Below are positions 3,571 through 26,137 of a DNA stretch of 64,000 nt, piece after piece. The DNA lies in NCBI GenBank assembly GCA_013359235.1, contig JABWCE010000005.1, forward strand, positions 62,001-126,000, read 5' to 3'. The DNA comes from Bacteroidota bacterium (GTDB lineage Bacteria; Bacteroidota; Bacteroidia; NS11-12g; UBA9320). Under the pieces are notes generated by a model, which was not told the origin of the DNA, did not search any database, and was given only the letters and a program-made list of their open reading frames with translations. Numbering within the stretch: the stretch's first letter is position 1; every line of letters begins with the position of its first letter. The position numbers and the translations under genes are program-made.

Positions 3571-6228
3571 ATGGATAACGAAAATTTAAACGATATAGAA
3601 AGCAATAGCGAAGAGCTTGAACACGATAATCTAAAAGTTATACCGCTTAGCGGAATGTACGAAAACTGGTTTGTGGAATACGCCTCTTATGTAATACTTG
3701 AAAGAGCCGTACCAGCACTTGAAGATGGACTTAAACCCGTTCAAAGACGAATATTGCACAGCCTTTGGGAACTTGAAGACGGACGTTATAACAAAGTTGC
3801 AAATGTTATAGGAAACACAATGAAATATCATCCTCATGGTGATGCTGCCATTGGAGATGCAATTATAAACCTTGGACAAAAAGAACTTTTGATTGATACA
3901 CAAGGAAACTGGGGTGATATAAGTACCGGCGATAGTGCAGCAGCACCCCGATACATTGAAGCCAGATTATCAAAATTTGCACTTCAGATAGTTTTTAACC
4001 CCAAAACCACCCTATGGCAGCGTAGCTATGATGGTCGCAACCGTGAACCTGTATTTTTGCCTGTAAAATTTCCTCTTGTATTAGCTCAGGGTGTTGAAGG
4101 TATTGCTGTGGGATTGAGTACAAAAATTCTGCCTCACAATTTTATTGAAATAATCGAAGCTTCAATTTCAATTCTTAATGGTAAAAAAACTAATATATTG
4201 CCCGATTTTCCTACTGGCGGGTATGCAGATTTTACAAACTATAATGAAGGAAAAAGAGGTGGTAGAATAAGAATAAGAGCCAAAATTGAGGAAAAAGACA
4301 AAAAAACACTTTTGATTAAAGAAATACCTTTTGGTACTACTACCGGAAACCTTATAGAATCTATAATTAAAGCAAATGATAAAAATAAAATAAAAATAAA
4401 AAAAGTAACTGATAATACAGCCCGCGAACTTGAAATAGAAATACAGCTTGCACAAGGAGTTTCTACCGATAAAACAATTGATGCTCTTTATGCTTTTACC
4501 GATTGCGAACTAAGCATTTCGCCCAATTCGTGTATAATATTCGAAGACAAACCATATTTTTGGGGAGTAAACGAAATACTCGAAAAATGCACATTCAATA
4601 CCGTTGAAATTTTAAAAAAAGAACTTGAAATAAACAGAGATGAACTTGAAGAAAAATGGCACTTTGGCAGCCTCGAAAAAATATTTATTGAAAACCGCAT
4701 TTACCATCAAATTGAAGAATGCGAAACATGGGAAGAAATAATAAATACAATAGACCTCGGGCTTGAACCATTCAAAAAATTACTAAAACGTGAAATTACT
4801 AAAGACGATATCGAAAAACTAACCGAAATAAAAATTAAAAGAATTTCAAAATTTGATTCTTTTAAAGCTGATGAATATTTAAAAAACATCGAAATAGAGT
4901 TAGACGAAGTAAATGCCCATCTCGCCAACCTTGTAAAATATGCAATAAGATTTTTTGAAGCCTTACTAAAGCAATTTGGAAAAGGAAGGGAACGAAAAAC
5001 CGAAATAAGAAAATTTGATAGTATTGAAGCCAATGTTGTTGCAGTGGCAAATCAAAAATTGTACGCCAACTTTGCTGAAGGATTTGTTGGGTTCGGGCTT
5101 AAAAAAGACAATTATATCTGCGATTGTTCTGACCTCGACGATGTAATTGCTATTAGAGATGACGGCAAATACAAAGTATGTAAAATATCCGAAAAAGCAT
5201 TTTTTGGCAAAAACCTTATTCATGTTGATGTTTTCAGAAAAAATGACGACCGTAAAGTGTATAATGCAATTTATTTCGATTCGAATACCAGAAAATATTT
5301 TTCAAAGAGATTTTCGATAACCGGCGTAACACGCGACAAAGAATACGATATTACACAAGGCAAACAAGGCTCAAAAATCATCTACCTTTCAGCTAATCCA
5401 AATGGCGAAGCCGAAATTGTAACAATACAGCTCAGCAATATGAGCAAAGCCCGCAATAAGATATTTGATTTCAATTTTGCCGAATTATCAATTAAAAACC
5501 GCAATAGTATTGGAAACACACTAACCAAATTTCAAATAAGAAAAGTAGTTTTAAAAGAAAAAGGAAGAAGCACAATTGGAGGAAGGTCAATTTATTTTGA
5601 ACCATCTATTGGCAGGCTAAATGCTGATGGTAGAGGTGATTTTCTTGGCAATTTTGACAACGAAGACAAAATACTTGTAATATACAACGAAGGAAGCTAT
5701 GAAATGACCGATTTTGAACTTACAAATCACTACGAAACCAAAGATATAATGCTTATTTGCAAATACAATCCTAAAATTGTTTTGACCGTTTTATATTACA
5801 TAGCAGCCGAAAAACAACATTACGTTAAGCGATTTAATATTGAAACCAGCACTATAGGCAAAAAATTTATGTTTATACAAGAAGGCAAAGGTAATTATCT
5901 CGCTTATGTAAGTGATAAACCTGAACCAATATTACTTTTAAAAACTGTCAACAAAAAAGGCGAAAAAGAAGAAAAAAATGTAAATTTATCAGAATTTATT
6001 GCTGTCAAAGGTTGGAAATCATTGGGCAACAAGCTTACAAACGATACATTAAAATCTTTTGAGGACATCACACCTCAAGTAATAGAAAATGATGAGACTA
6101 TTGAACCAGTTGACGAAATACCTTTTACAATAGAAATGGGCAATGGCGATGAAACAGACGAAAATAAAGATGTAAATTCAAAAGACGATGCAAAGCCCGA
6201 CAACCCCGTTCAGTTTAATTTGTTTTAA
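3571..6228 (+). CDS. parC: DNA topoisomerase IV subunit A
   Basis: This is the DNA breakage-reunion subunit that partners ParE. The N-terminal domain contains PVQRRILH and the QRDR segment HPHGDAAIGDA. The catalytic Tyr is Y128 in AAPRYIEARLS. The second half is a beta-pinwheel DNA-binding region with weak repeats, followed by an acidic tail (DETDENKDVNSKDDAKPD). Alanines occupy residues 92-93 where Ser is frequent in quinolone-sensitive enzymes; whether this matters for drug response cannot be told from sequence alone. At 885 residues it is typical for Bacteroidota ParC. A strong inverted repeat follows the gene. Confidence 0.93.
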   Translation: MDNENLNDIESNSEELEHDNLKVIPLSGMYENWFVEYASYVILERAVPALEDGLKPVQRRILHSLWELEDGRYNKVANVIGNTMKYHPHGDAAIGDAIINLGQKELLIDTQGNWGDISTGDSAAAPRYIEARLSKFALQIVFNPKTTLWQRSYDGRNREPVFLPVKFPLVLAQGVEGIAVGLSTKILPHNFIEIIEASISILNGKKTNILPDFPTGGYADFTNYNEGKRGGRIRIRAKIEEKDKKTLLIKEIPFGTTTGNLIESIIKANDKNKIKIKKVTDNTARELEIEIQLAQGVSTDKTIDALYAFTDCELSISPNSCIIFEDKPYFWGVNEILEKCTFNTVEILKKELEINRDELEEKWHFGSLEKIFIENRIYHQIEECETWEEIINTIDLGLEPFKKLLKREITKDDIEKLTEIKIKRISKFDSFKADEYLKNIEIELDEVNAHLANLVKYAIRFFEALLKQFGKGRERKTEIRKFDSIEANVVAVANQKLYANFAEGFVGFGLKKDNYICDCSDLDDVIAIRDDGKYKVCKISEKAFFGKNLIHVDVFRKNDDRKVYNAIYFDSNTRKYFSKRFSITGVTRDKEYDITQGKQGSKIIYLSANPNGEAEIVTIQLSNMSKARNKIFDFNFAELSIKNRNSIGNTLTKFQIRKVVLKEKGRSTIGGRSIYFEPSIGRLNADGRGDFLGNFDNEDKILVIYNEGSYEMTDFELTNHYETKDIMLICKYNPKIVLTVLYYIAAEKQHYVKRFNIETSTIGKKFMFIQEGKGNYLAYVSDKPEPILLLKTVNKKGEKEEKNVNLSEFIAVKGWKSLGNKLTNDTLKSFEDITPQVIENDETIEPVDEIPFTIEMGNGDETDENKDVNSKDDAKPDNPVQFNLF

Positions 6229-14915: not shown

Positions 14916-15668
14916 CTACCAATTACAATTGGGATATGACCTTTGCATGTACTGCAAATCAGTGAGAATTTTTCCAAGATTTTCGGTATGATAACCCGTT
15001 TTACCTCCTTTTTGGAACCACTCGGTTTTGGGTATTGATAAATTTGATAATTTAAAAATATTTTGAGTGTTTTCGAGCCATTTATGTTTAAGTTTTGAAG
15101 GATCAGGAGCAATTCCAAGTTTTATCATTTCTGTTTCGTAAGGTGTAATTTCAAACATTTCTCCGGTATAAATCCAAAGATTTTCAAGAGCATTTTCCAA
15201 CCTTTTCTTGCTTTCTTCGGTACCGTCACCAAGTCTCATTACCCATTCGCTGCTGAATTTGTAATGGTATTTTACTTCTTTTACTGCCTTAGATGCAATA
15301 GCAGCAATTTGATTATCGCTACATTCTGTCAAGCTCTGGTAAAGTAACAGACAATAATTATCGTACAAAAATTGTCTTAACATCGTTTGTGCCCAGTCGC
15401 CATTTGGTTGTTCTAAAATCAACAAATTTTTAAAATCTCTTTCGTTTCTGAAAAAAGCGTAATAATCTTCAGATTTACCTTTATTGTCAGATTTGGCTGC
15501 ATATTGATAAAAATATCTTGCTTGCCCCAAAATATCAAGAGTTATATTGGTTAAAGCTATGTCTTGTTCAAGAATAGGAGCGTGACCGCACCATTCGCCG
15601 AGCCTGTGCGAAAGAATAAGTGCATTATCGGCAAGGTGAAGCAGGTATTCAGTTTTAAAATTTTTCAA
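14916..15668 (-). CDS. paaC: Phenylacetyl-CoA 1,2-epoxidase subunit PaaC
   Basis: This is the structural, non-catalytic ferritin-fold subunit that pairs with PaaA in the aerobic phenylacetyl-CoA epoxidase. The N-terminus (YLLHLADNALILSHRLGEWCGHAP) and the later KYHYKFSSEWVMRLGDGTEES block are characteristic. At 250 residues it matches the family. It is the last gene of the minus-strand set and starts 13 bp after paaB. No paaD follows; the next gene is a convergent esterase. Identification is firm. Confidence 0.93.
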   Translation of the reverse strand: MKNFKTEYLLHLADNALILSHRLGEWCGHAPILEQDIALTNITLDILGQARYFYQYAAKSDNKGKSEDYYAFFRNERDFKNLLILEQPNGDWAQTMLRQFLYDNYCLLLYQSLTECSDNQIAAIASKAVKEVKYHYKFSSEWVMRLGDGTEESKKRLENALENLWIYTGEMFEITPYETEMIKLGIAPDPSKLKHKWLENTQNIFKLSNLSIPKTEWFQKGGKTGYHTENLGKILTDLQYMQRSYPNCNW

Positions 15669-15681
15669 GTTAATAATTTAA

Positions 15682-15981
15682 TTAAATATTTTTTACTTCG
15701 TTAGGTACATCGTAAAATGTTGGATGACGGTAAGGTTTGTCGGAAGCGGGATCAAAAAGCGAATCGATTTGGCCAGGATCTGAAGCAATAATATTTTTTG
15801 ATTCAACAACCCAAATACTTATTCCCTCTTGCCTTCGAGTATAAACATCACGGGCATTTTCTACTGCCATTTGAGCATCAGACGCTCTTAGACTTCCTAC
15901 GTGTTTATGACCTAAACCTCTTTTGCTGCGGACAAATACTTCCCAAAGGGGCCAGTTCTTTTTATTTTCAGAGTGTTTCAT
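15682..15981 (-). CDS. paaB: Phenylacetyl-CoA 1,2-epoxidase subunit PaaB
   Basis: This is the small bridging subunit of the epoxidase, 99 residues, with the hallmark [24 protein letters not shown] followed by [13 protein letters not shown] (first stretch given as the motif around residues 10-33). It helps assemble PaaAC heterodimers. The start overlaps the end of paaA by 14 bp, indicating translational coupling. It is complete and the assignment is very secure. Confidence 0.94.
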
Positions 15982-16924
15982 TTTTTATTTTTTTTAAAAT
16001 TTGTTTTTCAGCATAAGCTGTAGCTGCATCGCGAACCCATTTCCCATTTTCATACGCTTGGTTTCTAACCTTTATTCTGTCGCGGTTGCAGGGTCCGTTT
16101 CCATTTATAACTGAATAAAATTCGTTCCAGTCGGGCTCGCTAAAATCATAATGACCAGTTTTTTCATTAAATTTTAAATTTTTATCAGGTATTTTAATTC
16201 CAAGATATTCTGCCTGCGGAACAGTTGTATCTACAAAACGTTGACGAAGTTCGTCATTTGACAATCTTTTAATTTTCATCTGAACAGAATAAGCTGAGTG
16301 TACAGAATCCTTATCTTTGGGTCCAAACATCATTAATGAAGGATACCACCAGCGGTTTAGTGCATCTTGTGCCATTTCCTTTTGTTCTATAGTTCCTCTA
16401 CATAGTGTGAGCAATATGTCAAAACCCTGTCTTTGATGAAAACTTTCTTCTTTGCAAATACGAACCATAGCACGTGAATAAGGTCCATAAGAAGTTCGGC
16501 AAAGCATAACTTGATTCATTATAGCAGCCCCATCTACCAGCCAGCCAATTGCACCAATATCAGCCCAACTTAGTGTTGGGTAATTAAAAATACTCGAATA
16601 TTTTGCTTTTCCTGTGTGCAATTCTTCGATTAATTCTTCGCGGTCGGCACCAAGAGTTTCGGCAGCACTATAAAGATAAAGACCATGACCTGCTTCATCT
16701 TGTATTTTGGCAAGTAATGCAGCCTTTCGCCTTAAACTTGGTGCTCTGGTTATCCAGTTGCCTTCGGGCAGCATTCCCACCACTTCCGAATGTGCATGTT
16801 GCGAAATTTGTCTTATCATTGTGTGCCTGTACTTTTCGGGCATCCAGTCTTTTGGCTCTATTTTATCGTCTTTTTCAATTATTAAGTTGAAAATGTCTTC
16901 TTTGTCTTTTTCCATGTTTTTCAT
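15968..16924 (-). CDS. paaA: Phenylacetyl-CoA 1,2-epoxidase catalytic subunit PaaA
   Basis: This is the diiron catalytic subunit that inserts an oxygen atom into the phenyl ring of phenylacetyl-CoA. Diiron ligand motifs are visible: [15 protein letters not shown] and [32 protein letters not shown] is typical of the N-terminal part. At 318 residues it is full length. It overlaps paaE by four bases and paaB by 14. The reaction requires O2, so the organism is at least facultatively aerobic or oxygen-tolerant if the genes are used. Confidence 0.95.
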
Positions 16925-18027
16925 ACTTCGTCAAATGATATTTTAATTTTTTTTGAAACAGGATGCGATTGGCAAGTAAGTATAAATCCATTGTTAATTT
17001 CATCGGGTTCCAGACTGTAATTTACGTCCATTTTAACTTCACCTTCAAGTAGTTTTGCCCTGCATGTACAGCAAACTCCACCTTTGCAGGCAAAGGGCAG
17101 GTTGGCACCATTTTTTAGTGCAGCGTCAAGTATATTTTCATCACTTGTTTCTAAGTTGAAATTTAGTTCTGCACCATCGTTTATTATAGTAATATTACTT
17201 TTAATATTATCAGTAATTTTCGTAGCTTCAATATTTGTTTTTAAACCAATATTAGTAAATAATTCATGATGAATTTTAGATGAATCAATACCTAATGAAA
17301 GCAAACATTTTTTAACAGTTTCGGTCATTTTTATTGGACCGCAAATAAAAACTTCATCAATTTGGGCGGGGTCAAAAAAAGTTTTTGAAAATTTTAAACA
17401 TTTTTCAGAATCTAAATGACCTTTAAATAATGAACTACCAATAGTTTCGCGGCTCATTATATAATATATAGATAGTCTTGAAATATTTAGGTTTTTTAAT
17501 GCTTCTAATTCTTCCAGAAAAATTGTAGTTTCTGTTTTGCGATTACCGTAAAATAACGTAAAACTACTATCAGGCTCATCATGCAAAACTGATTTTATTA
17601 TTGAAATTATAGGAGTAATGCCACTTCCGGCAGAAAATGCAAGATAGTTTTTTGAATTTTTAGAATTTGTTTCAACATGAAATCTTCCATGCGGAGGCAT
17701 CAATTCTAATTCATCACCTTTTTTAAGTACTGAATTTGCAAAACTTGAAAAAGCTCCGTTTTCAATTTTTTTTACTGCAATACAAAATTCATTTTCGTTT
17801 GGGCTTGTGCATATTGAGTATGTGCGTCGTAGCTCTTTTCCATTTATCTCTTTTCTTATTATTATGTGTTGTCCTGCTTTGAACTGGAATGTAGATTTTA
17901 AATCGTTGGGAATATCAAAACATACCGAAACACAATCAGTAGTTTGGCGTTTGATGTTTTTAACTCTTAATTTATGAAATTCTTTTACTGACACTATTTT
18001 AAGTTTTTTACAAGCCCCACCAGTCAA
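16921..18027 (-). CDS. paaE: Phenylacetyl-CoA epoxidase reductase PaaE
   Basis: This reductase passes electrons from NADPH to PaaA. It has an FAD-binding domain ([12 protein letters not shown]), an NAD(P)-binding domain ([15 protein letters not shown]), and a C-terminal plant-type [2Fe-2S] ferredoxin with CKGGVCCTC and a later Cys. It is 368 residues from ATG 18027, a start that overlaps the upstream gene by 20 bp. Homology to characterised PaaE begins only near residue 12, so GTG 17994 is an alternative start. Placement of paaE first (E-A-B-C) differs from the enterobacterial A-B-C-D-E order. Confidence 0.93.
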
Positions 18028-18400: not shown

Positions 18401-19015
18401 ATGCTAAGGTTAAAAACCATAATATTTCTACTTTTGTTTTTATTTTCTTTTAAAAAAAACATTGCTCAAAATTTTAAATCAAAAGTATGTGGTGGTATTA
18501 ATTTTTCGCAGGTTGATGGTGATAAATACGCAGGTTATAATAAAATTGGTAGCAAAGTAGGGTTTACATTTTACAGGGAGTTTGAAAAAAACAAAAATTT
18601 AGGATTTGAATTAAATTACTCTTCAAAAGGTAGCAGAAAAAAGGTAACCGAAGAAGATCCAAGCATTTTTAAGCTCCGTATAAATTATATTTGTTTGCCT
18701 GTGTTTATTGATTTTAAAAATGTTTTGAAAGGTTATGAAAAAATTATTCTTAAAATTGGCATTTCGCCCAATATACTTATAAATTCAAAGACCGATTTTG
18801 GTTTTGGTTGGCAAAAAAACAATTTAAAACCAATGGAATTGAGTAGTATAGTTGGTATTTTGTATCAAATTAACTCAAAATCCGAGTTGGCTTTAATTCA
18901 TGAAAACAGTATTTTGAGTATAGGTAATAGTTATGCCGATGCACAATATTTTTTGTTATTTCATCGTGGTTTGTTCAATAGGCTTGTAAGTTTTGTTACT
19001 TATTATCGTTTTTAA
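18401..19015 (+). CDS. PorT-family outer membrane beta-barrel protein
   Basis: After a signal peptide (residues 1-23, ending NIAQ) the protein shows the PorT-type opening GGINFSQVDGDKYAGYNKIGSK (motif core GINFSQVDGD). Alternating amphipathic strands follow, including GFELNYSSKGSRKK, INYICLPVFIDFK and a C-terminal VTYYRF that ends in aromatic Phe as barrels do. At 204 residues it would make an eight-stranded barrel. PorT was linked to T9SS in Porphyromonas, but the family is broad. It converges on the PorG-fusion gene with four bases between the stops, a possibly meaningful neighbour. Confidence 0.75.
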   Translation: MLRLKTIIFLLLFLFSFKKNIAQNFKSKVCGGINFSQVDGDKYAGYNKIGSKVGFTFYREFEKNKNLGFELNYSSKGSRKKVTEEDPSIFKLRINYICLPVFIDFKNVLKGYEKIILKIGISPNILINSKTDFGFGWQKNNLKPMELSSIVGILYQINSKSELALIHENSILSIGNSYADAQYFLLFHRGLFNRLVSFVTYYRF

Positions 19016-19019
19016 TTTT

Positions 19020-21263
19020 TTATCTGAAAAATTTATGTGTCCAGGTTAAGCCCCAGTATCCGTAACCATCGTAATCTCCACTTGTTGAACGTTGTCCATT
19101 ATGGTCATTAGGGTTTGAAAGTTTAACGGCTATATCACCCAGTGATTGATTTGCTTTTTTCAAAGCTTCGGCATCGGGGTAATTTCCAGTACTTACATCA
19201 TCAAGATAATCTGTAAAAATTTTATTATATGTATATGACAGGCTAATTACATTTCTAATTCCCATGTGTTTTTTTACACTTACAGTAAAAGGAATACCTA
19301 CCATCCAATTTGCATAAGTGCCTTTGCCACCTGGTAAAGTTTGCCCTTCGGTTCCAATTGGTCTAAGTTTATACCATCTGCCGTTATATTGACCATAAGG
19401 AGTAAAATTATAAACATTTGCTCCAATAGCAATTGACGGTATATAAGATTTTATTGATTTGTATTTAATTAAATCCATTTCTGCCTGAGCATACAAATCA
19501 AAAATTTTAGTTTTGAATGACAAGCCTCTTGAATAACCTGTTCCTCTTTCTTTTCCAAGGGTTTTTGTGCGGTCGTCTGTACCTGAAACTTCTAAGTAAT
19601 TTGCACCAAAGTTCAATTGAAAACGCTCTGTAAGATGATATTTTAAACGAATGCCTATTGCAGGTTTAAAATTTTCGTAGGTTAATCCAACAGTTGTTGT
19701 AAACAAATCACCCCAGTATAATCCGTTGCCAAAAAATAAACCTGCTTCCCAAAACTTAGAAGTTTTTAGGGTATGGTTTACAGTGTCGTTCAAATCTTTT
19801 AATGAGTCTGCAGCCGTATAATGGTATATAAGTTTTGAAAGTTTGTCGTCAGGCAAATTGTTTTCAGATGAGCCTTTGGGTACTGTTTTAAATCTTTTGG
19901 TAAACAAGTCTTTTCGTGGTATTTTTCTAAGAAAGTTGGTAATTACCATCTCTATTTCATTATTTTTTAAAAATTGCTTTTTACCTATAAATAATGCAGG
20001 CACTTCCATACCATTTTCGTCAAAAAAACCATCAATATAAATATAACCGTTTTTTTCTCTACTAATAATATTATCATTTATTTCAATTTTTAATTTATTG
20101 TTTTCTTCATTCCACACAAGTTTGTGTTTTAGTTCTTTATTTACAAGGGTATCTTTATAAATATAAAAATATTGTACATCATAATTATCGCTGTTCTTTA
20201 CAGGCCTGTTAAAATCTAACTCAATGTTTGAAATTTTTGATTTTAATTCTTTAATATTAATTAATTCGTCTAATTCCTGGTCGTTTAATAGTATTTTATA
20301 AAAATGTCCGTTAATTGATTGATTTGGAGTTTCGTTAAGTTGATTGAAATATAGTGTGGGAGCCATAAAATTAGCAGAAACAAAATCGAAGGTGTTTTCT
20401 ATTTCCTTGTTTTCAGGGTTTCCGAAATAGTTATCTGATACATCAAGTTTTTCAGCATTACCCACTACACAAATATTTGTAAAGTCAACCGAAACTGAAT
20501 CTTCAAGAAATTGGTTTGAAAAATTATCAAAAATTGAATTATTTTCCAATACAGGAATTCGGGTATTATTACTCTGGTTGTAGTTGAAAAACAAAGGAGA
20601 AGTAAACATTCCGTTTCGGTCTCTACCAATGTATTCATTTCTAATTATAACATTGTTTTTAATAGATGTTTGAATAAAATCTGAAGCTATTTCGGAAATC
20701 AGTATAGAACCTGAATTGTTTGAAAATGTATTGTTTTCAATGCTGATTTTTACAGGTTTTGAAATGAGAATATTGTCAACTTCATTTATTTCAACGTTTG
20801 CTCCGTATAGTTCTGAAAATTTAAAAATACTGTTTTTAATTGATACGGATTCTCTAAGCCAGTTTTTTTGAACATGAAGTGGTTTGGAAAGAAACTTAAA
20901 ACTGCAATAATTAAAATTTATTGAAGATAAATCTGCACCACTTACTACAATGCCTTTCCCCGGAAAATCAGGATTTATACTCGTAAAATTGATAAGTTTG
21001 TTCTTTTTTCCCTCGAAAATCACACCTCCATTTACAATTATTTGTGCATTTCTACCGAAGAAAACATTTACTCCGTCTTTTATCATAAGTATTTTACCAC
21101 TTTTTACAGTTGAAATGCCATTTAACAAATAATTGCCCGAATCAAGTACGGTGTTTGATGTGATATTTTCGGGAAAAATTAAATATTTTTGGGAAAAAAC
21201 AGTTCTTGCAGTTATCAAATTTACCGCTGCAATTAAAAATATATAAAGAATTTTTCTTTTCAA
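19020..21263 (-). CDS. Beta-helix protein with C-terminal PorG-like outer membrane barrel
   Basis: Three regions are visible. A signal peptide ends at FSQ. A right-handed parallel beta-helix (about residues 30-290) carries repeated SIKNSIFKF, ISIENNTFSNN, TSIKNNVIIRN and VLENNSIFDN rungs. A middle region with Ig-like character follows, and then a C-terminal barrel (about 520-747). The barrel carries GLYWGDLFTTTVGLTYENF, RGLSFKTKIFDLYAQAE, YKLRPIGTEGQTLPGG and FTDYLDDVSTGNYPD. The last motifs match the DUF6089/PorG barrel of T9SS, which contacts the PorK-PorN ring. The gene begins two bases after the GldM-like gene, so the products are probably partners. A PorG fused to a beta-helix is not an arrangement I know. 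Function is unproven. Confidence 0.75.
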   Translation of the reverse strand: MKRKILYIFLIAAVNLITARTVFSQKYLIFPENITSNTVLDSGNYLLNGISTVKSGKILMIKDGVNVFFGRNAQIIVNGGVIFEGKKNKLINFTSINPDFPGKGIVVSGADLSSINFNYCSFKFLSKPLHVQKNWLRESVSIKNSIFKFSELYGANVEINEVDNILISKPVKISIENNTFSNNSGSILISEIASDFIQTSIKNNVIIRNEYIGRDRNGMFTSPLFFNYNQSNNTRIPVLENNSIFDNFSNQFLEDSVSVDFTNICVVGNAEKLDVSDNYFGNPENKEIENTFDFVSANFMAPTLYFNQLNETPNQSINGHFYKILLNDQELDELINIKELKSKISNIELDFNRPVKNSDNYDVQYFYIYKDTLVNKELKHKLVWNEENNKLKIEINDNIISREKNGYIYIDGFFDENGMEVPALFIGKKQFLKNNEIEMVITNFLRKIPRKDLFTKRFKTVPKGSSENNLPDDKLSKLIYHYTAADSLKDLNDTVNHTLKTSKFWEAGLFFGNGLYWGDLFTTTVGLTYENFKPAIGIRLKYHLTERFQLNFGANYLEVSGTDDRTKTLGKERGTGYSRGLSFKTKIFDLYAQAEMDLIKYKSIKSYIPSIAIGANVYNFTPYGQYNGRWYKLRPIGTEGQTLPGGKGTYANWMVGIPFTVSVKKHMGIRNVISLSYTYNKIFTDYLDDVSTGNYPDAEALKKANQSLGDIAVKLSNPNDHNGQRSTSGDYDGYGYWGLTWTHKFFR

Positions 21264-21265
21264 AC

Positions 21266-22957
21266 TTATTTTACTTTTATAGTTAAAGGTGAAATTTCGG
21301 TTTCGGTACCAAGTGACGATTTGGTTTTAATATTTGTAAAAATTAAAATATCACCGGCTTTTGAAGCTTTAATTATTTTGTAAATTGTACTATTGAATGA
21401 TGAACCAATATTTTTTAATGGTTTTAAAACTGCACTTTCGTTGTTATAAATTTTCATAAAATCAAATTCTGCAACGTAAACTTCTTCATTTACCAAATAT
21501 TCATCAGTTTTTAAATTTATTTTTTTAAATTCTTTCAAATCGTTTTCTGTTACTTCGTCGCCATTATATGTTTTATTTATAAAAGGTATAGGTTTTTGCA
21601 GTTCTCTTACGGTAAATTGTTGTTCGGCAACTTTTACTTTACCATAAGGCAAATTAGCAAAAATTTCAGCTTTTACAATCCCTTTTTTATTAACACGGGC
21701 ATAAAAAACATCGCCTCTTTTAAGAATTACACCATCGCTGATTGATGCAATAAGATTATCTTTTACATTGTATTCGGTTATTTTAATTTTAAGCGGATTG
21801 TCTATACCAATGTATAATGTAGGCAATTTTGTGTTTTGAATTATAGGTTCAATATCAATTACTCTGATTTCTTTTATTACTTTTTTTATACCATTATCAA
21901 AAGAGAATTTATAAGAACCTTTTTTTAATGGAAAATATATAAATTCTGAAGGTTTACTGTATGTAATAGTCTTGGTTTCGTAGTTTGAAAATATGTTTAC
22001 CAAAATGTTTTGAGATGATTTGTCATCAAAACCTATGAAAAATCTTATTGGCTTGCCAATAGGATGAATGCTGTCTGTCAAAGTTTCAATAAACATTGCT
22101 TTTGAAACTTGCGGTGGTTTTATTGTTGAATCTTTTTGAGGTGCGGGCACAGGTAAATTTTTATTTTGAACAGCAATAATTTCAAATTCTTTTTTAAATT
22201 TTTCATAAAACTTTGTTACATTTTGTTGCGAATTATTATTGGAATTTATGCTGTTACTTAAAATAGCTTGCGACAATTCCTGAGGCATAGCGTTGTTTTC
22301 AACGATTACCTGTTTAATTATTTTTTGAAGTGTTCTTATTTTAATTCTTTCAACTCTGCTTTCAAAATGTGAAAGATTAAGCAATGAAACATTTAAAGGT
22401 GTTTTGCTGAAGAAATATTTGCTTGATAAAATAAAATTTCCCGATGAGTTTCTTTCATAATCTTTAAGTGGCAAAAGTTCGTTCAAATAATCTAAGTCTT
22501 TATATGATATATAATCACTAATTTGGTCTTTAAAAACCTTTAAAATTTTAAATAATGAATCAGCCTTGTCTTCGTATATGAAAAAACGGTTTGAACTTAA
22601 CTCAGCTCTGCCTTTATTATAAAAACCGAATTTATTTGTTCCATCAATGCCTATTAGTTCTTTTTTATATCGGCTTATTGTACTTAATGGTACTTGGCTT
22701 ATTGATTCAATTTTAATAAACTTTTGCTTTGTCTCTTCAAAAACAGCAGGGTCATTTTTTAGGATTGTCAAAAAATAAATATTGTTGTTTGTGCTTAATA
22801 CATCAATTTCTTTGTTTAATTGTTCGAGGCTTTTATTTGAATGAAATGTAGAATCAACAAAATCTGAAGGTATTAAAATATATATAAATGCAAGAAATAT
22901 CAAATAAAGCAGGTTTATAACCCTTTGTCTAAGCCTTTTTGAATTACTTATAATCAT
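21266..22957 (-). CDS. GldM/PorM-like motor shaft protein (divergent)
   Basis: The N-terminus RLRQRVINLLYLIFLAF aligns with the conserved start of GldM (PRQKMIN.MYLV.. in Flavobacterium). It includes the Arg (R10) and Tyr (Y18) next to the single transmembrane helix (about residues 12-31). About 530 periplasmic residues follow as a series of small beta domains, as in GldM. In T9SS, GldM dimers pass through GldL pentamers, rotate with proton flow and reach the outer-membrane ring. The periplasmic part is very divergent (for example PIGKPIRFFIGFD and KKGIVKAEIF). It sits between the GldL-like gene and the PorG fusion, with 21-bp and 2-bp gaps. It is probably a paralogue with an alternative partner. 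Confidence 0.78.
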   Translation of the reverse strand: MIISNSKRLRQRVINLLYLIFLAFIYILIPSDFVDSTFHSNKSLEQLNKEIDVLSTNNNIYFLTILKNDPAVFEETKQKFIKIESISQVPLSTISRYKKELIGIDGTNKFGFYNKGRAELSSNRFFIYEDKADSLFKILKVFKDQISDYISYKDLDYLNELLPLKDYERNSSGNFILSSKYFFSKTPLNVSLLNLSHFESRVERIKIRTLQKIIKQVIVENNAMPQELSQAILSNSINSNNNSQQNVTKFYEKFKKEFEIIAVQNKNLPVPAPQKDSTIKPPQVSKAMFIETLTDSIHPIGKPIRFFIGFDDKSSQNILVNIFSNYETKTITYSKPSEFIYFPLKKGSYKFSFDNGIKKVIKEIRVIDIEPIIQNTKLPTLYIGIDNPLKIKITEYNVKDNLIASISDGVILKRGDVFYARVNKKGIVKAEIFANLPYGKVKVAEQQFTVRELQKPIPFINKTYNGDEVTENDLKEFKKINLKTDEYLVNEEVYVAEFDFMKIYNNESAVLKPLKNIGSSFNSTIYKIIKASKAGDILIFTNIKTKSSLGTETEISPLTIKVK

Positions 22958-22978
22958 AGTAGTATTATCTCTGAGATT

Positions 22979-23500
22979 TTAATCTTTTACGGCAAAATTG
23001 TCAAAATCTCGTAAACTATAATTTGCCCTTGCTATTTTATCTTTTAATGTGTTCAATTCCTTTTCGTATAACGAAGTTGTTTCGCTTATTACATCAAAGT
23101 TTTTATCTATTTTAGCAATTGATTCATTTAATTTTCTTGTTGCAGTATTTAAACTTACTACAGATGAATGAAGGGTTGTCAAAGATTCAATAATTTTTCT
23201 TATTTGCTGTTCTTGTGTTCCTTCAAGCAATTCAACATCAATGCTAATTGGTATTTCGTTTTTGTTTAATTGAGGGAAAACCTTATCCCATTCATATTCT
23301 TTTTTATTGTATTTCCAATCAAAAGCCGATATTAAGAAAATTATAGCTTCTGTTGTAAGCCCTATAATAAACAAGACATCTCCGAGATTCCAACCTAAAA
23401 ATTTGAACATTGCAGCAACTAGGATTATTGCAGCACCTAACCCATAAAAGAAATTGATAAAATCAAATTTTTTTTCAGTCGTGTTATTTATATTTTCCAT
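22979..23500 (-). CDS. GldL/PorL-like motor stator protein
   Basis: From ATG 23500 the 173-residue protein has two N-terminal transmembrane helices: FYGLGAAIILVAAMFKFLGW and GDVLFIIGLTTEAIIFLISAF. A cytoplasmic region starting KEYEWDKVFPQL follows, as in GldL. E51 in the second helix matches the protonatable Glu of Flavobacterium GldL that is needed for proton-driven rotation. The C-terminal half (STRKLNESIAKIDKNFDVI pattern) is coiled coil. A longer frame from 23557 adds 19 residues (YCILKNNYYFCM...) without resemblance to GldL and was rejected. It lies 34 bp after the FemAB-like gene. Confidence 0.85.
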   Translation of the reverse strand: MENINNTTEKKFDFINFFYGLGAAIILVAAMFKFLGWNLGDVLFIIGLTTEAIIFLISAFDWKYNKKEYEWDKVFPQLNKNEIPISIDVELLEGTQEQQIRKIIESLTTLHSSVVSLNTATRKLNESIAKIDKNFDVISETTSLYEKELNTLKDKIARANYSLRDFDNFAVKD

Positions 23501-23534: not shown

Positions 23535-24488
23535 TTATTTTTTAAAATGCAATACATTTTTTAAAAAAATTCTAAAAATAATAAATTTTTCTAAAAAATA
23601 GACATTTTTCGTAATTTGAAAATAAGATTTGTTAATTGGGGAAAACTTTTTGTAAAATAACTTTACATTAGTAATGTCAGATCCTTCAAAATCCAATTGC
23701 AGTGGGCTTGGGCAATATTTTTTTATAATTTCATTTATCATAAATTCTGTTGAGTTATTTTTTTTTCCATCGGGTGTAATTGCAGAGAATGGGTAGTAAA
23801 TTCTGTCTTTAAAAAAAAATATTACACATGCAGATAAGATTTTATCATTTTTAATTACTGAAAATATTTTTGCTTTTTTGTTATCAATCAAATGTTCTGT
23901 TACTTTTTTAAAAGCTATATATGTTTTATCATTAATAAAATGTAGGTTTTGCCAGGCATCTTTATAAATATTTATCAATTCATCTATTGATGTGTTTTCA
24001 TTTAATCTAATATTTGATTTCTCTGTTTTTTTTAGGTTACGTTTTAATTCGTTTGAATATTTTGAATAAATTTCAGTGTAGGTTGTATTGAGGTTTAATA
24101 CAAAATTTGTTTTTTTATTAAATTTAATTTTTTTAATGTTAAACACAGTATTTTCATGGTTTAGCGGATAAATGAAAGTTATAAATCTTTCGGTTAATTT
24201 CTTTAAAAAAAGTTGTAATATTTCTTTTTCAATTATATTGAATTTTGTAAAAACTCCTAATTGTTGGCAAAAATCAGGTCTATAAGTAAATTCAATGCCA
24301 AATTTTGATTTTATTGGAACAGGCATTATATAATCATAATCTCCAATTATTAGTGCATCCCATCTATTATGAGTAATATAATCAAGGTAAAAACTTAATG
24401 AATAAATGTTTCCCCAACTACATTCATTTATACATGCATCCCATTTATTACGATTAATTTCAATATTTTTTATCCAAATGGGATTCAT
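23535..24488 (-). CDS. GNAT/FemAB-like acyltransferase
   Basis: This 317-residue protein has a duplicated GNAT-like layout typical of FemAB/Acetyltransf_6 proteins: KYSNELKRNLKKTEKSNI (R-N-L-K-K substrate loop), then KIFSVIKNDKILSACVIFFFKDRIYYPFSA. The family transfers acyl groups from acyl-CoA or aminoacyl-tRNA to sugars or peptides; the actual substrate cannot be read. There is no signal peptide, so it is cytoplasmic. It lies between pruA (20-bp gap) and the GldL-like gene, so it may be the first gene of the GldLM-like set. Confidence 0.65.
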   Translation of the reverse strand: MNPIWIKNIEINRNKWDACINECSWGNIYSLSFYLDYITHNRWDALIIGDYDYIMPVPIKSKFGIEFTYRPDFCQQLGVFTKFNIIEKEILQLFLKKLTERFITFIYPLNHENTVFNIKKIKFNKKTNFVLNLNTTYTEIYSKYSNELKRNLKKTEKSNIRLNENTSIDELINIYKDAWQNLHFINDKTYIAFKKVTEHLIDNKKAKIFSVIKNDKILSACVIFFFKDRIYYPFSAITPDGKKNNSTEFMINEIIKKYCPSPLQLDFEGSDITNVKLFYKKFSPINKSYFQITKNVYFLEKFIIFRIFLKNVLHFKK

Positions 24489-24508: not shown

Positions 24509-26137
24509 TCAGGTGTTTAAAAACGGATATCTATAATCTTTTGGAGGCACAAAGTTTTCTTTTATTGTTCTCATACTTACCCAACGCAATAGATTTACTT
24601 TAGCTCCAGCCTTATCGTTAGTACCCGAACCTCTTGCTCCGCCAAATGGCTGTTGACCAACAACGGCACCCGTAGGTTTGTCATTAATATAAAAATTACC
24701 TGCCGAGTTTGATAGTTTTTGTGTAGCAATATTTATCGCATATCTGTCTTGCGCAATTATGCATCCTGTAAGTGCGTATTCCGAGGTATTATCAACAAGT
24801 TCGAGAGTGGTTTCAAATTCTTCGTCATTATAAACAAAAATTGTTAGAACTGGTCCAAAAAGTTCCTCGCACATAGTTTTATATTTAGGATCTGATACCA
24901 GTATAATAGTTGGCTCAATAAAATAACCTTTAGTTTTATTGTAATTTCCACCAGTTAATATTTCAACACTTTTATCATTTTTGGCATCATCAATATAGGA
25001 GGCAAGTTTGTTGAATGATTTTTCATCAATTACAGCATTTATAAAGTTTGAAAAATCTTCAGTAGGTCCCATTTTCATTGATTTGACTTCGGAAACGAGT
25101 TTATTTTTAATTTCGTTCCATAAACTCATGGGAATATAAGCTCTTGATGCTGCCGAGCATTTTTGCCCCTGATATTCAAAAGCACCTCTTGACAAAGCAG
25201 CGACTACGGTATCAACATCAGCAGATTTATGAACCATAACAAAGTCTTTTCCCCCGGTTTCGCCTACTATTCGGGGATAGCTTTTGTATTTTTCGATATT
25301 GTTTCCTATATCTTTCCATATTTGTCTGAAAATTTCTGTTGAACCTGTAAAATGAATTCCAGCAAAATCAGGATGTTTGAAAATAATATCTCCGGCTGTT
25401 GGTCCACTTACATAAATTAAATTGATAACTCCGGGAGGCAACCCTGCTTCTTCAAAAATTTCCATTAATATATTTGCTGAATAAATTTGAGTATTAGCAG
25501 GTTTCCAAACTACAGTATTGCCCATTAATGCTGCTGATGTTGGAAGATTTCCGCTAATTGCAGTAAAATTGAATGGAGTAAGAGCAAATACGAAACCTTC
25601 GAGTGGTCTGTATTCTATTCGGTTCCATATAGTTTTTGAATTTTCAGTTGGCTGTTCAGTGTATATTTCATACATATATTGTACATTGAAACGAAGGAAA
25701 TCAATCATTTCACAAGCAGCATCAATTTCTGCCTGATACACATTTTTGCTTTGACAAAGCATAGTAGCTGCATTTATTTTTGCTCTGTAAGGTCCGGCAA
25801 TTAAATCTGCTGCTTTAAGAAAAATGGCAGCACGTTGTTCCCAAGGTAATAAATTCCAATTTTTTTTGGCTTTCATTGCAGCATCTATTGCGGCAGTTAC
25901 ATGGGTTGCATCTCCTACTGAATATTCACCAAGTTTATGTGATAAATCATGTGGTGGACGCATAATTGCTCTTTTATCAGTATGAATTATTTCACCGTTT
26001 ATGTGCATACCTGCTACAATTTCTTTGCTGCGTAATTCATCAATGGTTTTTTTTAAATTTTCTCTTTCTTTGCTTCCGGGCATGTAATCTAAAACCGGTT
26101 CGTTTACTGCTTTTGGAACTCTGAATATACCTGACAT
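24509..26137 (-). CDS. pruA: 1-pyrroline-5-carboxylate (glutamate semialdehyde) dehydrogenase
   Basis: It oxidises L-glutamate 5-semialdehyde to glutamate with NAD+, the last step of proline (and arginine/ornithine) catabolism. It is an aldehyde dehydrogenase with catalytic Cys327 in YQGQKCSAASR and Glu293 in RIVGETGGKDF. FTGSTEIF and a C-terminal NFYINDKPTGAVVGQQPFGG block are also present. At 542 residues it is of the monofunctional eukaryotic/Bacteroidota type; no PutA proline dehydrogenase domain is present and no proline dehydrogenase gene is nearby. Transcription from a TAnnTTTG box at 26167-26160 is likely. Confidence 0.93.
   Translation of the reverse strand: MSGIFRVPKAVNEPVLDYMPGSKERENLKKTIDELRSKEIVAGMHINGEIIHTDKRAIMRPPHDLSHKLGEYSVGDATHVTAAIDAAMKAKKNWNLLPWEQRAAIFLKAADLIAGPYRAKINAATMLCQSKNVYQAEIDAACEMIDFLRFNVQYMYEIYTEQPTENSKTIWNRIEYRPLEGFVFALTPFNFTAISGNLPTSAALMGNTVVWKPANTQIYSANILMEIFEEAGLPPGVINLIYVSGPTAGDIIFKHPDFAGIHFTGSTEIFRQIWKDIGNNIEKYKSYPRIVGETGGKDFVMVHKSADVDTVVAALSRGAFEYQGQKCSAASRAYIPMSLWNEIKNKLVSEVKSMKMGPTEDFSNFINAVIDEKSFNKLASYIDDAKNDKSVEILTGGNYNKTKGYFIEPTIILVSDPKYKTMCEELFGPVLTIFVYNDEEFETTLELVDNTSEYALTGCIIAQDRYAINIATQKLSNSAGNFYINDKPTGAVVGQQPFGGARGSGTNDKAGAKVNLLRWVSMRTIKENFVPPKDYRYPFLNT

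Follow-up and report, generated by a model that had tools for sequence, protein, structure and literature searches.

The window, the whole 64-kb stretch of DNA that was analysed, carries on its reverse strand three closely spaced genes, which encode a GldL-like protein (GldL2), a GldM-like protein (GldM2) and a fusion of a beta-helix with a PorG-like barrel (Table 1). The likely start of GldL2 is the ATG at 23500, and the longest open reading frame extends to 23557. The GldL2 and GldM2 genes are separated by 21 bases, and the fusion gene follows after a gap of 2 bases, just as the first-pass annotation of this DNA had read it. That annotation had also claimed that GldK and GldN are missing at the locus, and indeed we found neither of them, nor PorP, across the 64 kb of the window, by a search whose positive control worked. 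The set recurs in dozens of genomes, so the arrangement of the locus is not due to chance.

Table 1. Features of the three-gene locus and its upstream neighbour, in window coordinates.
Feature	Position	Strand	Description
GldL2	22979..23500	-	Inner-membrane motor subunit, pentamer-type; two TM helices, E51 and K33 kept, short cytoplasmic tail
GldM2	21266..22957	-	Axle/shaft; R10 and Y18 in a single N-terminal TM helix, followed by helical D1 and three beta domains
Beta-helix-PorG fusion	19020..21263	-	Signal peptide, beta-helix (predicted periplasmic), Ig-like linker, then an OM barrel of eight strands that lacks the cysteine tail
Right-handed beta-helix domain of fusion, residues about 25-311	20331..21191	-	Z 19.2 to PL6 alginate lyases
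Beta-rich (Ig-like) linker of fusion, residues about 321-427	19983..20303	-	Strands in predicted model
PorG/OmpA-like 8-strand barrel of fusion, residues about 499-746	19026..19769	-	Foldseek, Z and PorG model
pruA-like P5C dehydrogenase, upstream neighbour of the trio, outside the machine	24509..26137	-	Adjoins the trio in 9/10 relatives

In the family, the pruA-like gene adjoins an AsmA-like gene even in genomes that have no trio, which marks the latter as an ancestral neighbour, and on this ground we rejected the AsmA/YhdP-like gene, which also flanks the trio in several relatives, as a lipid-transport link. Its product is a protein of about 890 residues with a charged coiled-coil tail (beside pruA at L046:4303-6945, L048:3213-5930, L052:12772-15465 and L054:9980-12661); the gene is absent from the window genome and its genus. 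A FemAB/GNAT-like acetyltransferase gene at 23535-24488, between pruA and GldL2, is present only in the window genome and one relative (G001). The same relative has, beside its trio, the run of phenylacetate-degradation-like genes found on the reverse strand at 14916-18027 of the window, and it alone conserves the OMP_b-brl_2 outer-membrane barrel gene that lies directly downstream of the fusion (18401-19015, forward strand).

GldL2 and GldM2 are paralogues of the ordinary GldLM of the genome. The window genome (G000) carries two GldL and two GldM, and its contig 25 (C25) holds a complete gldK-gldL-gldM-gldN locus together with a PorP-like gene, which makes the GldLM of the trio a paralogue. 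The first-pass annotation had expected a normal T9SS elsewhere in the host, and also a distinct GldLM pair, linked to a beta-helix-PorG fusion and without K and N at its own locus; both expectations held. It had also allowed that the only GldLM copy of the genome might lie here, and the second GldLM, within the complete contig 25 locus, shows that it does not. Elsewhere, two canonical-like GldM reading frames (L042 and L044) share one short contig (G022:C112).

GldL2 matched Pfam GldL_N at 1.1e-21 and passed the cut-off of NCBIfam GldL (TIGR03513; 78.1 bits, cut-off 68.3). It lacks the conserved final part of the cytoplasmic tail (model positions 190-247): its matches stop by about position 163, while many canonical GldL cover this segment. 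Its TM2 glutamate is E51, numbered from the likely ATG, as had been annotated. GldL E49, the TM2 glutamate of F. johnsoniae, is essential, and secretion is lowered by GldL Y13A, GldL K27A and GldM Y17A (PMC9127263; PMC8986121).

By its sequence, GldM2 is a divergent member of the GldM family. It scored over the cut-off of Pfam GldM_3rd (3.6e-6) and, at 86.7 bits, below the cut-off of 180 of NCBIfam GldM (TIGR03517). It shares 22% identity with the genome's canonical GldM, to which it aligned over the full length in a profile comparison with 99.7% probability. Its R10 and Y18, picked out in the first-pass annotation, align gap-free to Arg9 and Tyr17 of that protein, and we take Arg9 of GldM to have a functional role. 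An AlphaFold2 model of GldM2 (mean pLDDT 74) reproduces the GldM arrangement of a TM helix, a helical D1 and beta domains D2-D4. Its best PDB matches in Foldseek were PorM and GldM (E 1.4e-19), with Z scores to these of 20.8 for D1 and 15.4 for D3-D4; the possibility that structure prediction might give no GldLM fold was thus not borne out. Only 3 of the 11 canonical-invariant D4 residues are kept. The loss in D4 is not specific, however, since every periplasmic domain has lost such residues at a similar rate.

The fusion matched the PorG model (NCBIfam NF052316) at 6.7e-18 over residues 505-746, with 65.2 bits, below the cut-off of 130. Its barrel was modelled with eight strands and is OmpA-like (Foldseek 3e-7, Z 16.4 to OmpA), and the match of its predicted beta-helix to PL6 alginate lyases covers 238 residues with an rmsd of 3.7. 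A barrel with eight strands has both ends facing the periplasm, which suggests that the beta-helix is periplasmic as well. Of the PorG-like barrel with a surface or periplasmic beta-helix that had been annotated, the barrel and the periplasmic placement thus stand, while the surface placement does not fit the eight-strand model. We also rejected a reading of the fusion as a Type V autotransporter, since its eight strands match OmpA and not a 12-strand C-terminal translocator barrel. A role of the beta-helix as an enzyme is disfavoured: R137 is the sole invariant charged residue in the helix, and so few invariant charged residues do not point to an active site.

The fusion shares with the PorG of the T9SS the barrel domain and the SEGQ/TEGQ and TDYLDD motifs, and differs from it in having an N-terminal beta-helix and Ig-like part of about 500 residues and in missing the cysteine tail for GldK (PMC12635249). 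PorG of F. johnsoniae is disulfide-bonded to GldK through the PorG C-tail, and disulfide-independent interactions of PorG have also been noted (PMC12635249). A C-tail cysteine was not found in any of the 16 fusions examined; one has a cysteine in the last barrel strand and another is a frame lacking a barrel end of its own. The window genome's own PorG, on contig 36, does have the tail cysteine. Without such a tail, the fusion is unlikely to attach to GldK in the known manner, and it may itself receive the tip of GldM2. Two copies of the fusion gene are split into two frames by a frameshift or an assembly error (L200:10785-12933 and L050:9991-12196). Other PorG-related genes were also noted: an adjacent pair of OmpA-like proteins with calcium-repeat-like linkers that weakly match the PorG model (L055:6414-7844 and 4643-6217), and tandem PorG genes that each encode a near-C-terminal cysteine (Cys268 and Cys297; L056:6319-8165).

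Full-length GldM2 was present in 11 of the 108 genomes of the order, all from the window's family, and in nine of these the beta-helix-PorG gene directly follows it. The search of Bacteroidota genomes for the same trio that had been proposed at the outset recovered it within the family, together with a sister operon in the order and in GTDB. In the remaining two genomes (G009 and G010) GldL2-GldM2 has no adjacent fusion, so the partner either is not strictly obligatory or lies elsewhere. Wider spread in the phylum was not seen among 395 sampled genomes, a sample that leans to well-assembled genomes and may miss MAG lineages: 91 had a GldL match, only the window genome had two GldL, and GldM2a, a subunit of the sister form, was not found, a negative that by itself carries little weight.

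The sister form came to light through an additional GldL in the order's other family. It is an operon of five genes, encoding a protein that we call X, GldL2, two different GldM subunits (GldM2a and GldM2b) and a beta-helix-PorG fusion. The first-pass interpretation was thus supported in part, and this operon is what it had missed. GldM2a was found in 13 of the 108 genomes of the order, with some copies cut by contig ends, and none of the 108 has both forms together. A scan of GTDB genomes yielded the five-gene operon at 26 loci, with GldM2a down to 29% identity, and wherever a copy was not truncated by its contig the genes stood in the same order. The 26 named two-GldM records are all MAGs. 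GldK, GldN and PorP were not found in the stretches around 22 operons, and a canonical GldL was present elsewhere in all 12 two-GldM genomes tested. One operon copy lies on an 8.9-kb contig of a genome from the other family (G025) and is possibly mis-binned; another genome (G046) has two different operon copies (L123 and L124), or is a mixed bin.

Protein X has a signal peptide, a periplasmic coiled coil and a C-terminal membrane helix, and belongs to a small family that gave only weak coiled-coil matches to curated models. It was present in 10/10 two-GldM genomes tested and in 0/8 one-GldM genomes. GldM2a and GldM2b are 24-28% identical overall and 31-40% identical over the first 60 residues, and their genes lie 1 base apart or overlap in the operons measured. 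A C-x-C motif and a third cysteine, nearly invariant in GldM2b at residues of about 307-333 (11 of the 12 examined, with L187, L202 and L210 among the copies), are absent from GldM2a and GldM2; they could form a disulfide in the shaft.

We asked how GldL2 relates to ordinary GldL by building a tree with 12 canonical sequences, of which seven came from the window's order. GldL2 was split from all 12 with 100/100 support, and within it the one-GldM and two-GldM forms were one group each (94/86 and 85/92, respectively). Since GldL2 is separated even from canonical GldL of the same order, the second motor did not arise as a recent copy. The motor glutamate is nevertheless kept throughout both forms and is invariant in 16 aligned GldL2 members.

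We consider it probable that the trio encodes a second, paralogous GldLM-type motor with an outer-membrane partner of its own, driven by protons and acting on an outer-membrane-anchored periplasmic beta-helix rather than on the GldKN track. In such a motor, GldL2 pentamers in the inner membrane would pass protons through the TM2 glutamate and thereby turn (or tilt) the GldM2 axle. The GldM2 shaft would span the periplasm, so that its D4 tip could transmit force to the periplasmic beta-helix, which a PorG-type barrel of its own would anchor in the outer membrane; this would replace the GldKN track and leave the motor independent of it. GldL2 and GldM2 might instead form an alternative stator that drives the ordinary GldKN track under other conditions or for other cargo, in the manner of dual flagellar stators, with the fusion as an extra force-transmitting outer-membrane partner. 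The homology of the third gene to PorG would fit such a stator, as would the preservation of the GldM fold as far as D4, the canonical T9SS of the window genome, whose GldKN could be shared, and the canonical GldL of the two-GldM genomes. However, the fusion is missing the cysteine tail that binds GldK, the operon never lies near GldK or GldN, and GldL2 is an ancient separate clade that lacks the tail segment matched by many canonical GldL at the C terminus, and we therefore regard a shared track as rather unlikely.

The two GldM subunits of the sister form differ in the charge of their predicted TM helix. We counted positions from the conserved TM tyrosine, such that -8 is the equivalent of Arg9 and -5 lies three residues further on (+3); the flanking TM motif aligned gap-free, so the register of the comparison is safe. 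Arginine was found at -8 in 16/16 canonical GldM, which have methionine at -5, in 11/11 GldM2 and in 23/23 GldM2b, all 23 of the latter with leucine at -5. GldM2a had arginine at -8 in 0/26 (serine, isoleucine, asparagine or threonine in its place) and lysine or arginine at -5 in 26/26. Because GldM2b has the Arg9 equivalent, whereas the charge of GldM2a lies deeper by one helical turn, the axle would have two differently built faces. The sister-form axle is, on this comparison, most likely a GldM2a/GldM2b heterodimer, and one axle made from two different proteins with charges one helical turn apart would be the simplest reading. Protein X may keep the GldL ring of such a motor in place.

The same residues could also be taken to mean that GldM2a and GldM2b form separate homodimeric motors that share one GldL, one of them being an inactive or regulatory stator: the Arg9 equivalent is missing in GldM2a, and each protein has its own TM helix and shaft. 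This seems unlikely to us, as in all intact copies the two genes adjoin each other in the same order, overlapping or only a short gap apart, and the invariant lysine or arginine at +3 in GldM2a indicates a region under selection and not one that has decayed. More tentatively, and with somewhat less than even confidence, we propose for the heterodimer a K/N-independent trans-envelope motor of five GldL2, one GldM2a and one GldM2b, with charged residues at two depths of its axle, that would drive an outer-membrane-anchored periplasmic beta-helix and would be new beside the T9SS, Tol, Ton, Mot and Agl systems.

TolQRA-Pal and ExbBD-TonB also have an inner-membrane proton motor that acts on an outer-membrane partner. 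By analogy of layout, with a proton motor beside an outer-membrane-anchored periplasmic domain, GldL2-GldM2 could pull on the outer membrane through the fusion for envelope maintenance, constriction or import/export, while the beta-helix would bind either a glycan or a partner in the periplasm, with no rotary work on a track. The modelled resemblance of the beta-helix to glycan-binding lyases and tailspikes is consistent with such an energiser. However, R137 stands alone as an invariant charged residue of the beta-helix, and the long, multi-domain GldM shaft is unlike TolR and ExbD; here it stands in for TolA or TonB, next to a dedicated outer-membrane barrel with a beta-helix. Overall, we judge an energiser of this kind improbable. 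Finally, a split or relocated ordinary T9SS, with the trio as the genome's GldLM and with K and N elsewhere, is scarcely credible and was rejected: GldL2 does score over the GldL cut-off, but the genome has two GldL, two GldM and the complete gldK-L-M-N locus on contig 25.

Compared with canonical GldLM, the proposed second motor retains the GldL_N fold with the TM2 glutamate and the lysine, the L-M gene order and the GldM fold, with equivalents of Arg9 and Tyr17 in GldM2 and GldM2b. It differs in the separate GldL2 clade without the tail end, in GldM2 scoring below the family cut-off, in the lack of K and N from the trio and the operon, and in the two different GldM subunits of the sister form. 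The AglR-AglQ-AglS gliding motor of Myxococcus, likened here by its description, is similarly encoded as a single ring subunit plus two distinct axle subunits, but AglQ and AglS are MotB homologues, whereas here both axle subunits are GldM-like (review PMC9389320). Whether AglQ/S is a heterodimer or a homodimer is not known (review PMC9389320). A literature search found no account of AglQ/AglS heterodimers, and no earlier account of a second GldLM motor was found in the literature searched, in which journal coverage was partial. To our knowledge, the only role known for GldLM is to drive the T9SS and gliding.

A sister lineage of this motor that is tied to another outer-membrane receiver suggests that the force-receiving end has been replaced. 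The two-GldM form would offer a natural test of 5:2 motors, in which one can ask if the axle helices are equivalent and if one arginine per axle is enough, neither of which a homodimeric GldM can show. As for the anchor that the GldL ring has been missing, protein X is a candidate. If these proposals are true, the two operons would represent a trans-envelope machine of a new type, and nature would have provided an experiment on the turning of such motors.
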